This document shows, piece by piece, positions 21,338-28,188 of a DNA stretch of 64,000 nucleotides. Below the pieces are notes generated by a model, which had not been told where the DNA came from, ran no database searches, and saw only the letters and a program-made list of their open reading frames with translations. Position 1 is the stretch's first letter; the number at the start of each line of letters is the position of its first letter. The translations under genes and the position numbers were made by a program. The DNA is from Sediminispirochaeta smaragdinae DSM 11293 (lineage in GTDB: Bacteria > Spirochaetota > Spirochaetia > DSM-16054 > Sediminispirochaetaceae): the NCBI RefSeq assembly GCF_000143985.1, contig NC_014364.1, forward strand, positions 3,782,001-3,846,000, given 5' to 3'.

Positions 21338-24300
21338 CTATATGCTAAATTCCGGCAGTTTTCGTGGTACCAACGGTTCCCTTCTCAAGCGGGCGATGGC
21401 CTCGGCAGCGGCTTCTGCCGCACTGGTGGTCGTCGTATAGGGAATATGAAGACGCATGGCCTCACTTCTAATCTCATCGTCACCACGCCGGGCATTGCTT
21501 CCCATGGGGGTGTTTATCACCAAGGCTATCGTTCCCCTACGAAGGTGGTCGATGATATTGGGGTGGCCTTCATGGACCTTCAGAATGACCTCGCTCATGA
21601 TGCCGTTGCGAAAAAGGTCCCAGGCGGTCCCACGGGTAGCGGCTATTCGAAAGCCCATATCCGCAAGTCGGCGGACAGTGGGAAGTATGGTTCTCCGGTC
21701 CCGCCTGTTGACGGAAACAAAGACGGTTCCATCGACCGGCAGGATGTTTCCAGCTGCGATTTCCGCCTTTGCAAAGGCCTCGCCGAAATCGGAACCGAAG
21801 CCGGCAACCTCCCCTGTCGAGCGCATCTCAGGCCCGAGCAGGGGATCAAAATCAGGAAATCGTTCACTGGAAAAAACGGCCTCTTTCACCGCCCATCCGA
21901 CAACACAGTGTCCCTCACCGATACCATCTTCTCCGATGACCCCCTGGGAGGTAAGCGTTTTGCCGCTCCAGATTCCCACGGCCAGATCGAGCAGGTCGAC
22001 CCCGGAGGCTTTGGAAAGGAACGGAACGGTACGTGAGGCGCGGGGGTTAACTTCGAGAAGGTAGAGCTCTCCGTCCCGCACGGCGAACTGGATATTGAGG
22101 AAACCGACGATCGGGAGCTCCCTTGCGATTATGAGGGCAGCCTGCCTCATCTGACGGTGCATCTCAGGCAGCTGCTTCCAGGCTGGAAAAACGGCCGCAG
22201 AATCTCCCGAATGAACCCCAGCCGCCTCGATATGCTGCATGATCCCCCCAATATAGATCGACTGGCCGTCGCTGACCGCATCAAGGTCATACTCAAAGGC
22301 ATCCTCGAGAAAACGATCGACAAGAATGGGGCGGGAAGCGCCCATCGGGGGCTTGGTTTCCAGAAAGGCTTCAAGCTCTTCGGGACCGTAGGCGATATAC
22401 ATGCTTCTTCCGCCGAGGACAAAGGAGGGACGCAGCAAAACCGGATAGCCAAGATCGGCCGCAGCATCCCGTATTCCGGCAGCGGTCGAAGCGCTCCGAT
22501 TATCGGGCTGTCGAAGCCCCAGCTTGCGAACCAGGTCGGCAAAGGATCCCCGCCCCTCGGCCCTTGAAATAGAGGATGATGCCGTTCCGATGATGTTTGC
22601 ACCGGCGGCCTCAAGTTCTTCAGCAAGGTTTAGCGGGGTTTGTCCCCCGAGCTGTACCACAACATCGCGAATCTGCTCTTTTTCCATAATGGAGAGCACC
22701 TCTTCCGCAGCAAGGGGCTCAAGGTAAAGCCGATCCGAACTGTTGTAGTCGGTGGAGACGGTTTCGGGATTTGCATTTACCATGATGGTACCGACCCCAC
22801 GTTTCCTCCAGGCAGCCGATGCCATGGTGCAGCAGGTATCGAACTCCAGTCCCTGTCCGATTCTGTTTGGTCCCGATGCAAGGATCAGGACCCGGCGAGA
22901 GCCTTCGAGAAAGCCTCCCTCATCCTTCTCTCCCCAGGTCGAGTAGAAATAGGGGGTCTCGGCAGCAAACTCTCCCGAACAGGTATCGACCAGATGGTAG
23001 GAAGGCCGCATATCGCTGCGCTTTCGTAGGGCAGAAACCGCAGCAGGTTCCAACCCCGCAAGCCTGGCAATCCGGCGATCGCTGAGCCCCATACGCTTTG
23101 CGGAAAGAAGCAGATCGCCTCCCTCCCCGTCCGATGAAAGCCCTCCGTCGGCGATCTGCTGTTCCAAGCCGCTTTGCTCAAGGAGTTGGGAAAGGAACCA
23201 GGGATGGAAGCCGCTGACGGAAGAGACCGCTTCAAGGGATTGGCCCTGTCCCAAAAGCGTCAGGGCGGCGCGAAGTCGCTTTGGATGCGGAGAGGCGAGA
23301 ATTCTACCGGCATCGGCGATCAGCTCAGGAGATTCAAAGGGTTCGAGCCCCTCATGCCCCTCTTCGAGGGAACGGAAGGCCTTATTAAGGGCTTCCAAGA
23401 AAGAGCGACCGAGGGCAAGGGCCTCTCCCACGCTTTTCATTCTGGTACCGAGAAGCTGGTAGCCGGAGGGAAATTTGGCGGTTTCAAACCGGGGGACCTT
23501 GACGGCACAGTAATCGAGTACAGGCTCGAAACAGCTTGCCGTCTTTCCCGTAATCTCATTGAGGACCTCATCAAGGGTGTAACCGACGGCGAGCTTCGCC
23601 GAACAGCGGGCGATAGGAAAGCCGGTGGCCTTGCTGGCAAGGGCCGAAGAACGGGAGACTCGAGGGTTCATCTCGATCACCACCATGCGTTCTCCATCCT
23701 TCGGCATGGCGAATTGTACGTTACTGCCGCCGCAGTCCACACCAACGGCACGAAGGATATCGATGGCAGCGGTCCGCATACGCTGGTACTCTATCTCGGT
23801 AAGGGTCTGGGCCGGGGCAACCGTCACGCTGTCTCCAGTATGAACCCCCATGGGATCGACATTTTCGATGGAGCAGACGACTACCGCGTTGTCGGCCTTA
23901 TCCCGCATCACCTCCAATTCGAACTCCCGCCAGCCGATAAGAGATTCTTCGACAAGGGCGGTACCTACAGGACTCTCCCGCAGGGATTCGGCGAGGAGAC
24001 GCTCCAGCTCCTCCAGGCTATTCGCAACCCCTCCTCCCTTGCCTCCCAGGGTGAAACTGGGACGAACAATCAGAGGAAAGCCCGCCTGTTCGGCAAAGGC
24101 AAGGCCCTCATGCACCTGTCGGCACAGGACGGAAACGGGAGACTCCAGGCCGAGGGAGGTAACGACCTCCTTAAAACGGCCCCGGTCTTCGGCCAAATCG
24201 ATGGACTCCATAGAAGCACCGATAATCTCGACGCCGAAGCGCTCGAGGACCCCGGCACGGGCAAGCTCGCCGGCAAGGTTGAGTGCGGTCTGCCCCCCCA

Positions 24301-24568
24301 TGGTGCTCAGTAAAGCGTCGGGACGCTCCCTCTCAATGATCGCGGTCAGGCTCTCAAGGCTTAGGGGTTCGAGGTAAATGGCATCGGCACTCCCCGGTGT
24401 TGTCATAACCGTGGCGGGATTCGGATTTACCAGAACAACGTGATACCCCTCCTCCTTGAGGGCCCTGACAGCCTGGTTTCCGGAATAGTCGAACTCACAG
24501 GCCTGGCCGATGACGATAGGGCCGCTGCCGATGATCAAAATAGTATGTATATCATCTCTCGCGCTCAT
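21338..24568 (-). CDS. carB: Carbamoyl-phosphate synthase large subunit
   Basis: 1076 residues, the normal length of CarB. The two homologous halves each carry an ATP-grasp domain, the first starting at ILIIGSGPIVIGQACEFDYSG and the second at VLILASGPNRIGQGLEFD. A C-terminal MGS-like allosteric domain begins at about residue 940. It makes carbamoyl phosphate from bicarbonate, ATP and the ammonia supplied by CarA, for arginine and pyrimidines. The start overlaps the carA stop (ATGA). Confidence 0.97.
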   Translation of the reverse strand: MSARDDIHTILIIGSGPIVIGQACEFDYSGNQAVRALKEEGYHVVLVNPNPATVMTTPGSADAIYLEPLSLESLTAIIERERPDALLSTMGGQTALNLAGELARAGVLERFGVEIIGASMESIDLAEDRGRFKEVVTSLGLESPVSVLCRQVHEGLAFAEQAGFPLIVRPSFTLGGKGGGVANSLEELERLLAESLRESPVGTALVEESLIGWREFELEVMRDKADNAVVVCSIENVDPMGVHTGDSVTVAPAQTLTEIEYQRMRTAAIDILRAVGVDCGGSNVQFAMPKDGERMVVIEMNPRVSRSSALASKATGFPIARCSAKLAVGYTLDEVLNEITGKTASCFEPVLDYCAVKVPRFETAKFPSGYQLLGTRMKSVGEALALGRSFLEALNKAFRSLEEGHEGLEPFESPELIADAGRILASPHPKRLRAALTLLGQGQSLEAVSSVSGFHPWFLSQLLEQSGLEQQIADGGLSSDGEGGDLLLSAKRMGLSDRRIARLAGLEPAAVSALRKRSDMRPSYHLVDTCSGEFAAETPYFYSTWGEKDEGGFLEGSRRVLILASGPNRIGQGLEFDTCCTMASAAWRKRGVGTIMVNANPETVSTDYNSSDRLYLEPLAAEEVLSIMEKEQIRDVVVQLGGQTPLNLAEELEAAGANIIGTASSSISRAEGRGSFADLVRKLGLRQPDNRSASTAAGIRDAAADLGYPVLLRPSFVLGGRSMYIAYGPEELEAFLETKPPMGASRPILVDRFLEDAFEYDLDAVSDGQSIYIGGIMQHIEAAGVHSGDSAAVFPAWKQLPEMHRQMRQAALIIARELPIVGFLNIQFAVRDGELYLLEVNPRASRTVPFLSKASGVDLLDLAVGIWSGKTLTSQGVIGEDGIGEGHCVVGWAVKEAVFSSERFPDFDPLLGPEMRSTGEVAGFGSDFGEAFAKAEIAAGNILPVDGTVFVSVNRRDRRTILPTVRRLADMGFRIAATRGTAWDLFRNGIMSEVILKVHEGHPNIIDHLRRGTIALVINTPMGSNARRGDDEIRSEAMRLHIPYTTTTSAAEAAAEAIARLRREPLVPRKLPEFSI

Positions 24569-25761
24569 GGATGCACCTCGTTTTTATTCTGTAAAAGCGT
24601 ATCGATCCAGCGATCGAATAGGATCGTCGCCTCTCTCGGTCCCGGAGAGGCCTCGGGATGGAACTGAACGGATGAGGCTGCCAGATGTTTATGCATGATA
24701 CCTTCAACCGATCCATCGTTGGCATTCACATGGCTCACCACAACATCTTCGGGAAGAGAATCGGGATCGACCTCAAAGCCGTGATTCTGGCTCGTCACAT
24801 AGACACGTCCCGTGGCCATCTCCCGTACGGGATGATTAGCGCCGTGATGGCCAAAGGCCATCTTTCTTGTCTTACCTCCCAGGGCCGTGGCGAGGAGCTG
24901 GTGTCCCAGGCAAATTCCGAAAACGGGAACCTTGCCGACAAGACCGGCCACCGTTGCAATCTCAAGATCGAGAACTGCAGGATCACCAGGACCATTTGAT
25001 AAGAGCACACCATCTGGATGCAGAGAAAGTACTTCTTCCGCAGTTGAAACAGAGGAAAGCACAACAACGTCGGAACCGCAACGCTTCAACTCCCGAATGA
25101 TACCGCCCTTCACCCCGTAATCAATCAAAGCGACCCTAACCTTCGCCTCGTTCGCAGAAAAACTCTTTTCGACGGCCGAAGACCCTTTCTCCGTTCCGCT
25201 TTTGCGCGCGAGGGCCTGCCCCTCCATGGAAGGGATGGCCCTGACGCGCTTCAGGGCCCCATCAAGCCAGCTATCGGAGGGGAACCGGGCATCGTCATTG
25301 AGGCGAAAAAGCATTCCGTTGCGGCTTCCTCCATCCCGCAGGCTGATGGTCAAAGCCCTGGTATCCACGCCGCAGATTCCGCAGATGCCGTAGCTCTCGA
25401 GAAAATGAGAAAAGGAGATTCGCCCGGCCGGGATCGGTCCGCTGTAGAGATTTCTGACGACAACCGCAGCGGCCTTTGGACAAAAACGCTCATTTCGATC
25501 GGCAGAAACACCGGTCTCACTCCAATCTTCATCACAGCCGTAGTTGCCGATATGGGCAGAGGTAAAGACAAGGATCTGCCCCGCATAAGAAGGATCGGTT
25601 ACCATCTCATGATACCCGCTCATGCTGGTATTAAATACAACCTCTCCAGCAGCGTTTTTGCTTGTTTCCTTCGGAACATCATCCAGCAACGGAGCAGGGG
25701 ATCCAAAACCATTACCCGGAAACCAGCTTCCGTCGCTCAGTAAAAGCAGCGTGTTGCTCAC
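24565..25761 (-). CDS. carA: Carbamoyl-phosphate synthase small (glutaminase) subunit
   Basis: 398 residues from a GTG at 25761 preceded by GGGAGG. The N-terminal CPSase small-chain domain is followed by a class I glutamine amidotransferase domain with the nucleophile in VFGICLGHQLLA and a C-terminal VQFHPEASPGP. A longer reading starts at a TTG at 25800 without a ribosome site. Translationally coupled to carB. Confidence 0.95.
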   Translation of the reverse strand: MSNTLLLLSDGSWFPGNGFGSPAPLLDDVPKETSKNAAGEVVFNTSMSGYHEMVTDPSYAGQILVFTSAHIGNYGCDEDWSETGVSADRNERFCPKAAAVVVRNLYSGPIPAGRISFSHFLESYGICGICGVDTRALTISLRDGGSRNGMLFRLNDDARFPSDSWLDGALKRVRAIPSMEGQALARKSGTEKGSSAVEKSFSANEAKVRVALIDYGVKGGIIRELKRCGSDVVVLSSVSTAEEVLSLHPDGVLLSNGPGDPAVLDLEIATVAGLVGKVPVFGICLGHQLLATALGGKTRKMAFGHHGANHPVREMATGRVYVTSQNHGFEVDPDSLPEDVVVSHVNANDGSVEGIMHKHLAASSVQFHPEASPGPREATILFDRWIDTLLQNKNEVHP

Positions 25762-25802
25762 AGTCGCCTCCCGTATAAAAATACAACGATTTTCGTACAA
25801 AA

Positions 25803-25816
25803 TGAATAATTATTCA
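25803..25816. promoter_or_regulatory. ARG-box-like palindrome upstream of carAB
   Basis: TGAATAATTATTCA is a perfect 14-bp palindrome identical to the core ARG box recognised by ArgR in Escherichia coli. It sits 42 bp upstream of the carA start. A second short palindrome TGAATATTCA lies at 25838-25847, with centres 33 bp apart. This suggests arginine repression of carAB. The AT-rich setting and lack of an argR gene in the window keep this tentative. Confidence 0.55.
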
Positions 25817-25820
25817 CTTA

Positions 25821-25898
25821 TTGTTGCAAATACTACCTGAATATTCATTTTACTGCAACAACAAGGAGAAATTTGTTTTTATTTTACTTCTTGTTGCA
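25821..25898. repeat. Three copies of an 8-mer in the carA-kinase gap
   Basis: TTGTTGCA occurs at 25821-25828 and 25891-25898, and inverted as TGCAACAA at 25854-25861. The first two can form a hairpin. The function is unknown; they could be operator half-sites for either divergent gene. Confidence 0.5.
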
Positions 25899-26016
25899 TT
25901 TTTTTCCTGTGCGGTCGTAAACAAGGAAATGTACACTTTTCTTGCTTTTCACTTTGCAAGGTACTATTATAATAGATAGTTTAGATATTTTTTATATCCA
26001 GGAGGAACAGAGGCCA

Positions 26017-28188
26017 GTGGGAAACAAGGAGCCTCGGAACATTCTTCTGGTGGATAGCGATGGAATTATCGCATCGACCGGAAAAGAACTCCTTCAGCGG
26101 CACGGCCATAGGGTTACCACAGCACAAACAGGCCGGCAAGCCGTTACCATAATCAACGCCCATGAAGAAATAGAGATCGTCTTAACGGAGATTGATATCG
26201 ATAGATCGATGAATGGGGCAGAGACAGCCCGTCAGATTCTTGCGCTCAGGGAACTGCCTATCCTTTTTCTAACAGACAGGCGAGACAAAGAAGCCCTTGA
26301 CCTGATACGCGATATACCAAGTTATGGCTATATTCTCAAAGCATCCGGTGAATATGTTCTTATCAAAGTCCTGAACATGGCGTACGACTTCTTCCGAACC
26401 CAAAAAGAGCTCGTAAAAAAAGAACGCCTTTATCGTTGGGTAGCAGACAACAGCAGCGATGGTATTGCCGTTATCGAAAATCATAAAACAAATTTTGTAT
26501 CTCCGGCCTATTTACAGATGCTGGGATGTACATCACTGGGCGATCGCGAGATATCCCTAGACGATCTATTCAAACGCGTTCATCCTGACGATCTGCCGAG
26601 AGTAAAAAACAATATCGCGGCCGCAATCGCAAACGGAAGCAAGCGCCTACGACATCGCTACAGGATCATCAAATCAGATGGTTCATATGCATGGATCGAG
26701 GATAATGTGGCACTATTCTATCATAACGGGCAATATCAATTTTCTATTATCAATGGAAGAGACGTGACCGAGTACCAGCTTGCGCGAGAGCGGCTCTCGG
26801 CAAAAGAGCGAGAGTACCGATCGCTTTTTGAAGGGGCCATTCACCCTATTATTATCTTCGACAGCAACGGGGTTATCGTCGATCTGAACCAGGCGGCGGC
26901 GGAAGATGTGGGAGCAGCGAAAGAACACCTTGCCGGCAAGGCCATTACTTCACTTTTTCCCGGCTTTTCCAGGGTATTGCTTGATCGTATTCGCAACTGC
27001 TTACAAACAAATAAAAAGATGGAATATACCGACACCGTGAAGTGTTCGGAAGGAGATGAACGACATTACACGAATATCTTTCAACCGACCCCGTACGAGG
27101 CGGGAAAACAGCGACTCGTTCAGCTCTTTGCCTACGATATCACCCAACATAAAAACGCAGAAATCGCCCTGCGAAAGAGTGAAGAACGGTTTAGCTATGC
27201 AATGGAAGCATCAAATGATGGCTTATGGGACTGGACCCTTTCTTCCAACGAGGTGTACTTCAGTCCCGCTTGCGAAGCAATAGTAGGCTATAAGCCCGGA
27301 ACCCTGCCGCGAACCATTGCCTCATGGACAAACATGCTCCACCCTGAAGACCGGCCCACAGCAATTCAGGCACACCGCGATTGCATTGATAATAAAAGTG
27401 ATACCTTCCGGCTTGAACAAAGGATAGTAAGTAAGGACGGGACCCTGCGGTGGATACTCTCAAAAGGCAAAGCCGTGGAACGGGATAAGAGCGGCAAAGC
27501 CCTCAGGCTTGTTGCCGTACATACCGATATAACCGAACGAAAACAAGTAGAAGAGAAACTGCGAAAGGCCCTGGATGAGAAAGACGCACTCATGAGGGAG
27601 ATGAACCACCGAATCAAGAACAACCTTGCAATGGTCTCTTCCCTTATCAGCCTTAAAGAGTTCTCCATGGGCCCCAACAGCGATCTTTCGGATATCCGTT
27701 CCCAGCTTGAAGCGATCCGGACCATTCACGATAAATTGAGCCGTTCCAACAGTACGCTCAATATTAAGCTAAAAGAGTATATAACGGACCTCCTCACCCC
27801 GCTCTTTTTGACGGCTGCAAATATGGAGGTGGCATTGCACATCGATGTCCCCGAACTTCTCATTCCGGCAAAGACCGGAGTAGCCATAGGGCTTATCATT
27901 AACGAAGTAGCTACAAATGCCGTCAAACACGGTTTTATCCCTTCAGAAAAAGCTGAGTTCTCCGTCGTGCTGAAAAGGCTTGAAGCCTCGGATGATTTTC
28001 TGCTGATTCTTTCAAACAGCGGACGATCTTTCCCCAAAGAGATCGACTTCGATAACAGTCAAACACTCGGATTACAGTTAATCCGCAGCCTGACCGAACA
28101 ACTGGGCGGAGAGGTAGAATTACGAAGGGAGCCATGGACCAAATTTCTGATAACTATTCCCCGACAGGTACTTGGCAGCAGTCAATAA
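26017..28188 (+). CDS. Sensor histidine kinase with pseudo-receiver and PAS domains
   Basis: About 723 residues from a GTG at 26017, which follows AGGAGG (26000-26005) and the -10-like TATAAT at 25968-25973. An ORF opening at 25942 would begin upstream of that -10. Domains: receiver-like fold (about 1-125), at least three PAS/PAC modules (to about 530), a HisKA_2 box (MNHRIKNNLAMVSSLISLKE) and a HATPase domain. In the receiver the phospho-acceptor Asp is replaced by Glu (IVLTEIDID), and one acidic-pocket residue is Ser (LLVDSD). No membrane segment, so it is a cytosolic sensor. Its response partner is not adjacent. Confidence 0.87.
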   Translation: MGNKEPRNILLVDSDGIIASTGKELLQRHGHRVTTAQTGRQAVTIINAHEEIEIVLTEIDIDRSMNGAETARQILALRELPILFLTDRRDKEALDLIRDIPSYGYILKASGEYVLIKVLNMAYDFFRTQKELVKKERLYRWVADNSSDGIAVIENHKTNFVSPAYLQMLGCTSLGDREISLDDLFKRVHPDDLPRVKNNIAAAIANGSKRLRHRYRIIKSDGSYAWIEDNVALFYHNGQYQFSIINGRDVTEYQLARERLSAKEREYRSLFEGAIHPIIIFDSNGVIVDLNQAAAEDVGAAKEHLAGKAITSLFPGFSRVLLDRIRNCLQTNKKMEYTDTVKCSEGDERHYTNIFQPTPYEAGKQRLVQLFAYDITQHKNAEIALRKSEERFSYAMEASNDGLWDWTLSSNEVYFSPACEAIVGYKPGTLPRTIASWTNMLHPEDRPTAIQAHRDCIDNKSDTFRLEQRIVSKDGTLRWILSKGKAVERDKSGKALRLVAVHTDITERKQVEEKLRKALDEKDALMREMNHRIKNNLAMVSSLISLKEFSMGPNSDLSDIRSQLEAIRTIHDKLSRSNSTLNIKLKEYITDLLTPLFLTAANMEVALHIDVPELLIPAKTGVAIGLIINEVATNAVKHGFIPSEKAEFSVVLKRLEASDDFLLILSNSGRSFPKEIDFDNSQTLGLQLIRSLTEQLGGEVELRREPWTKFLITIPRQVLGSSQ

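Follow-up and report, generated by a model that had tools for sequence, protein, structure and literature searches.

An exact copy of the E. coli ArgR operator core in front of the carbamoyl-phosphate synthase genes of Sediminispirochaeta smaragdinae (a spirochaete since renamed from Spirochaeta smaragdinae) raises the question of whether carAB of this organism belongs to an ArgR regulon. We addressed it in the 4,653,970-bp, single-contig genome (G000) and, locally, in a 64-kb stretch that we refer to as the window (G000:C1:3782001-3846000; all short coordinates below are positions within it). Both genes lie on the minus strand and score well above the cut-offs of their families, carA for the small subunit at 24565-25761 (TIGR01368, 380.2 bits versus a cut-off of 307.35) and carB for the large subunit at 21338-24568 (TIGR01369, 1298.3 bits versus 1027). 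The first 4 bases of carB are shared with the end of carA, so the two are probably read from a single carAB transcript. The start codon of carA is a GTG at 25761, preceded by a probable ribosome-binding site, GGGAGG, which we read from the sequence at 25767-25772 (minus strand). A sequence-only reading of this DNA had claimed an exact E. coli operator core 42 bp before carA, and this claim was borne out by TGAATAATTATTCA at 25803-25816.

To score such sites, we used a palindromic 18-bp model obtained by expectation maximisation on the argR upstream regions of 27 relatives of the same class, with the own genus excluded. The motif found de novo, ATTGTATAATTATACAAT, reached a log-likelihood of 186.6 versus 36.2, 32.5, and 37.4 in three Markov resamples and is the ARG box; since the argR promoters were the training set, the evidence there is this comparison with resampled sequences and not the box matches themselves. 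Only two places in the window score at least 12 bits with this model, and both precede carA: a distal box at 25801-25818, which encloses the exact core and is the best site of the window (16.5 bits), and a proximal box at 25770-25787 with the core TGTATTTTTATACG on the minus strand, which is the second best (12.7 bits) and whose outer bases overlap the carA Shine-Dalgarno sequence. The proximal box, to which ArgR is predicted to bind, is the true second box of this operator; it had been overlooked in favor of a second, half-length element, TGAATATTCA at 25838-25847, on the opposite side of the distal box. That element consists of two half-sites without the 4-bp centre and in none of the registers that we scored exceeded 4.7 bits, so that we rejected it as a standard ARG box. 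Overlapping it, a 10-bp arm at 25842-25851 repeats 25799-25808 exactly in inverted orientation. Both carA boxes are unchanged in another genome of the same genus (G001), an identity that adds little because the two genomes are nearly identical across the whole region.

The same reading had named the absence of argR, or of further ARG boxes, as what would speak against it, and had suggested looking for the gene itself and for boxes upstream of argG and argC; we sought all of these and found them. The genome encodes one ArgR of 156 amino acids with both Pfam domains, PF01316 and PF02863, above cut-off (PF02863 at 86.3 bits). Its closest solved structures by sequence are from Bacillus (1f9n at 89.4 bits and 1b4a at 86.8 bits), and it has the segments TQAT.SRD and GDDT in common with the solved Bacillus ArgR/AhrC proteins, the latter segment having a role in arginine binding. 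The next gene downstream of argR is argG, which starts around 120 bp after it, and upstream of argR lie boxes of 18.1 and 6.9 bits at a distance of 21 bp. A separate cluster is formed by argC, argJ, and argB (the latter two identified by eye from their translations), with boxes of 14.8 and 8.3 bits before argC that are likewise 21 bp apart. An 18-bp imperfect palindrome with a TGNAT....ATNCA core is therefore present near the starts of arginine genes at several operons of one genome, namely, carA, argR-argG, and argC.

Our view of the regulon covers the operons that we looked for as well as the genome-wide matches to the patterns TGAATNNNNATTCA and TGNATWWWWATNCA. No ARG box was found in the 200 bp upstream of the arginine deiminase genes arcA-arcB, where nothing scored more than 4 bits. 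The only ornithine carbamoyltransferase gene above cut-off (L013, G000:C1:4290269-4291231) has as its neighbor a gene that we recognized by eye as arginine deiminase, and no additional argF for biosynthesis scored above cut-off in this genome; this one enzyme may serve both directions. Two further palindromes were noted elsewhere in the genome. One is a 19.4-bit ARG box (L170:1499-1516, G000:C1:351406-351423) that starts 103 bp upstream of a gene for a substrate-binding protein of the branched-chain amino-acid type of ABC transporter, a possible further ArgR target, and the other is a 16.2-bit ARG-like site (L172:1499-1516) between a hydroxypyruvate-isomerase-like gene and a gene for a LacI-type regulator, of which it is perhaps the own operator.

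How much weight the core at carA can bear depends on how often such sequences occur. Within the 64 kb of the window, the 14-mer TGAATAATTATTCA is the sole match at up to 2 mismatches, with a chance mean of 0.31 and at least one match in 27 of 100 shuffles. Genome-wide, TGAATNNNNATTCA has 9 matches versus 2 for a reversed-pattern control, and the E. coli core by itself is therefore weak evidence. Six of the 8 places besides carA lie inside open reading frames of at least 260 amino acids, and we accordingly discarded most of these matches as operators; the remaining 2 are found before a DUF1302/Wzi-like gene and before a TetR-like gene. The looser pattern TGNATWWWWATNCA occurs at 7 places versus 3 for its control, and none of those other than carA precedes a gene that we recognized as an arginine gene. 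Since strong matches away from arginine genes exist, the sequence alone is not specific, and the significance of the carA site derives from its position and from a comparative test.

For this test, the carA, argR, and argC loci were extracted from a sample of 41 genomes including the own one. ArgR was detected in 32 of the 41; 30 of these gave loci, of which 29 were used after excluding G031, for which the upstream stretch was too short. For carA, 29 loci were usable. Scored with the model trained without the own genus, a carA box of at least 12 bits is present in 14 of the 24 genomes with ArgR, counting the own genome and its sister, versus none of the 5 ArgR-negative ones, a difference with a one-sided exact probability of around 0.025 (computed by hand, from small numbers). 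A rank test on maximum carA scores, using the model including the own genus, separated the ArgR groups weakly (p = 0.097). As a control, 224 segments of 330 bp were taken from the locus ends; 1 of them reached 12 bits and 3 reached 10 bits. The 10 ArgR-positive genomes without a carA box at 12 bits include 2 with a short available upstream region (65 of 330 bases in G005 and 161 of 330 in G018), and in G005 a sequence resembling a box, TGCATAAATATACC, lies right at the border of this region, too near the end for the 18-bp model. As a positive control, the carA loci of Gallibacterium (L087, L091, L094, and L106) carry cores matching at 10 of 10 positions. No box was found at carA of four named spirochaete loci (L053-L056, best score 4.9 bits), from genomes that may or may not encode ArgR.

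In S. smaragdinae, argR precedes argG, whereas in 15 relatives of the class it precedes argC, with argR immediately upstream in G008, G010, G012, G013, G014, G016, G021, G023, G026, G028, G030, G033, G035, G038, and G039 (judged by eye from gene coordinates). In genomes with another gene order, a site of more than 14 bits is present before argC in 7 of 9 ArgR-positive cases versus 0 of 3 ArgR-negative ones; a 13.5-bit site is seen in G003, where ArgR was not found but the genome is 68% complete. None of the 15 argC genes directly behind argR has a site that reaches 12 bits. These argC counts were obtained with the model trained with the argR of the own genus included and cover 28 of 30 loci, leaving out the partial matches L167 and L169.

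The spacing of boxes was surveyed upstream of carA and argR at a threshold of 7 bits, with the argR regions mostly belonging to the training set. The 36 distances between the centres of neighboring boxes were 10 (4 cases), 20 (2), 21 (15), 22 (9), 31 (3), 42 (2), and 52 bp (1) and thus approximate integral numbers of helical turns, with 20 to 22 bp in 26 of the 36. The two boxes at carA of S. smaragdinae are 31 bp apart from centre to centre, equal to three helical turns and one turn more than at its own argR and argC. From distances of around 10, 21, 31, 42, and 52 bp, it seems that the ArgR operators of this class hold helical phase while their length varies.

If the palindrome were a chance match in AT-rich DNA and carAB lay outside ArgR control, the 8 other places of TGAATNNNNATTCA, 6 of them within open reading frames, and the AT-rich intergenic DNA of this very locus would be what one expects. 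Chance would then also have to place two boxes before one gene as the sole sites of at least 12 bits in 64 kb and to repeat the motif before carA in 12 more ArgR-positive genomes outside the genus while sparing all 5 without ArgR, which makes this explanation very improbable. We consider it very unlikely, too, that the site serves some other regulator whose palindrome is similar, or a protein that controls the divergent PAS/histidine-kinase gene, which is encoded on the plus strand and probably starts with the GTG at 26017. A second control element in this region is suggested by three copies of TGCAACAANAAG at 25817-25898 (two on the minus and one on the plus strand), and one sigma-70-like match at 25946-25973 points towards the kinase gene, with 0.7 such matches expected by chance. 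Against a role of the palindrome in this context, the ARG boxes adjoin carA, with around 200 bp between them and the start of the kinase gene, and their motif occurs at argR and argC as well. Of the 12 exact matches to TGCAACAANAAG in the genome, 3 are those at carA and the other 9 all fall inside open reading frames, so that we rejected a genome-wide regulon based on this sequence. The same intergenic region also contains, within 25854-25920, a plus-strand inverted repeat (25854-25870 and 25882-25898, 82%) followed by seven T. By eye, the first arm of this repeat includes an AAGGAG, behind which a possible open reading frame of 15 codons, rich in Phe and Leu, can be read; these features may form a leader of the kinase gene or may have arisen by chance in AT-rich DNA.

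Two other proposals build on an ArgR operator at carA. carAB also feeds pyrimidine synthesis. We can imagine its control region as a two-input switch in which an ArgR operator of unusual geometry, with boxes three turns apart and one of them over the ribosome-binding site, would read arginine, while a separate factor on the three copies of TGCAACAANAAG just upstream would read another signal such as pyrimidines; this is a speculative scheme to which we give a small chance. Rather doubtful is the idea that ArgR uses three evenly spaced sites, centred at 25778.5, 25809.5, and 25840.5, the last of which would include TGAATATTCA. By simple arithmetic, counting the ATTCA half of 25834-25847 gives a distance of exactly 31 bp from each centre to the next, but the third register (starting at 25832) scores 4.0 bits and matches just 7 of 10 core bases. 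Such an arrangement would extend the explanation that we favor rather than compete with it.

That explanation, to which we assign a probability of roughly 90%, is that the site is an ArgR operator and that arginine-bound ArgR represses carAB, argR-argG, and argCJB via two-box or similar operators. Boxes and argR are present in this genome, and the motif recurs before carA, argR, and argC of relatives and is absent before carA of the five relatives in which no ArgR was detected. When arginine is plentiful, hexameric ArgR together with arginine would grip the boxes at 25801-25818 and 25770-25787, whose centres, at a distance of about three turns, should face the same side of the helix. ArgR bound in this way would block initiation or early elongation at carAB so that carbamoyl phosphate is not overproduced, and it would repress its own gene with argG as well as argCJB via their similar boxes. 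The dependence on arginine, repression rather than activation, and the existence of a promoter at carA are predictions from the DNA sequence, and a consensus search of the minus strand revealed no convincing sigma-70-like promoter for carA. The sequence-only reading had further proposed that ArgR control of carbamoyl-phosphate synthesis would be conserved far from Proteobacteria and Firmicutes; control of carAB is well supported by argR, by the boxes at argR-argG and argC, and by the recurrence at carA, while the breadth of this conservation was already known.

Indeed, the title of Makarova et al. 2001 already claims a site conserved in all bacterial lineages, and the ArgR proteins of Streptomyces and of Thermotoga (the latter of class III), both described in PMC4865122, are likewise from outside Proteobacteria and Firmicutes. 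Among spirochaetes, the Borrelia and Borreliella species examined in PMC8947608 are described there as lacking an ArgR homologue, and the main text of RegPrecise 3.0 (PMC3840689), with its 14 taxonomic collections, does not contain the string "Spirochaet". No published spirochaete ArgR regulon was among the matches listed in our search of open-licence literature, which does not establish its absence from print. Our results extend the classical arginine regulon to a spirochaete class with consistent comparative evidence and supply a usable ARG-box model for this class.

E. coli carAB has a pair of promoters, P1 and P2, and tandem ARG boxes, including at P2; the E. coli box is given as TNTGAATWWWWATTCANW (PMC4865122). 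The likeness of S. smaragdinae to this system lies in the exact match to the core, in a protein of the ArgR family, and in carAB and arg genes as targets. Given E. coli ARG boxes of 18 bp that are 3 bp apart (PMC6640053), the tandem spacing is 21 bp from centre to centre, which is seen at argR and argC of S. smaragdinae but not at carA with its 31 bp. Bacillus, as the source of the closest solved structures, is the nearest reference for the protein, and the ARG box of B. subtilis AhrC is given as CATGAATAAAAATKCAAK (PMC4865122); in contrast to the AhrC system, no box was found in the 200 bp upstream of arcA-arcB in the spirochaete. The Streptomyces box, AWTGCATRWWYATGCAWT in the same source, resembles the motif of the spirochaete class in that the latter likewise accepts either C or T as its third core base (TGCAT or TGTAT), whereas the distal carA box of S. 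smaragdinae has the E. coli form, TGAAT. The carAB operator thus leaves the view of how ArgR works unchanged: With ArgR and ARG boxes already known beyond Proteobacteria and Firmicutes, it is an ordinary and well-supported case with local twists.
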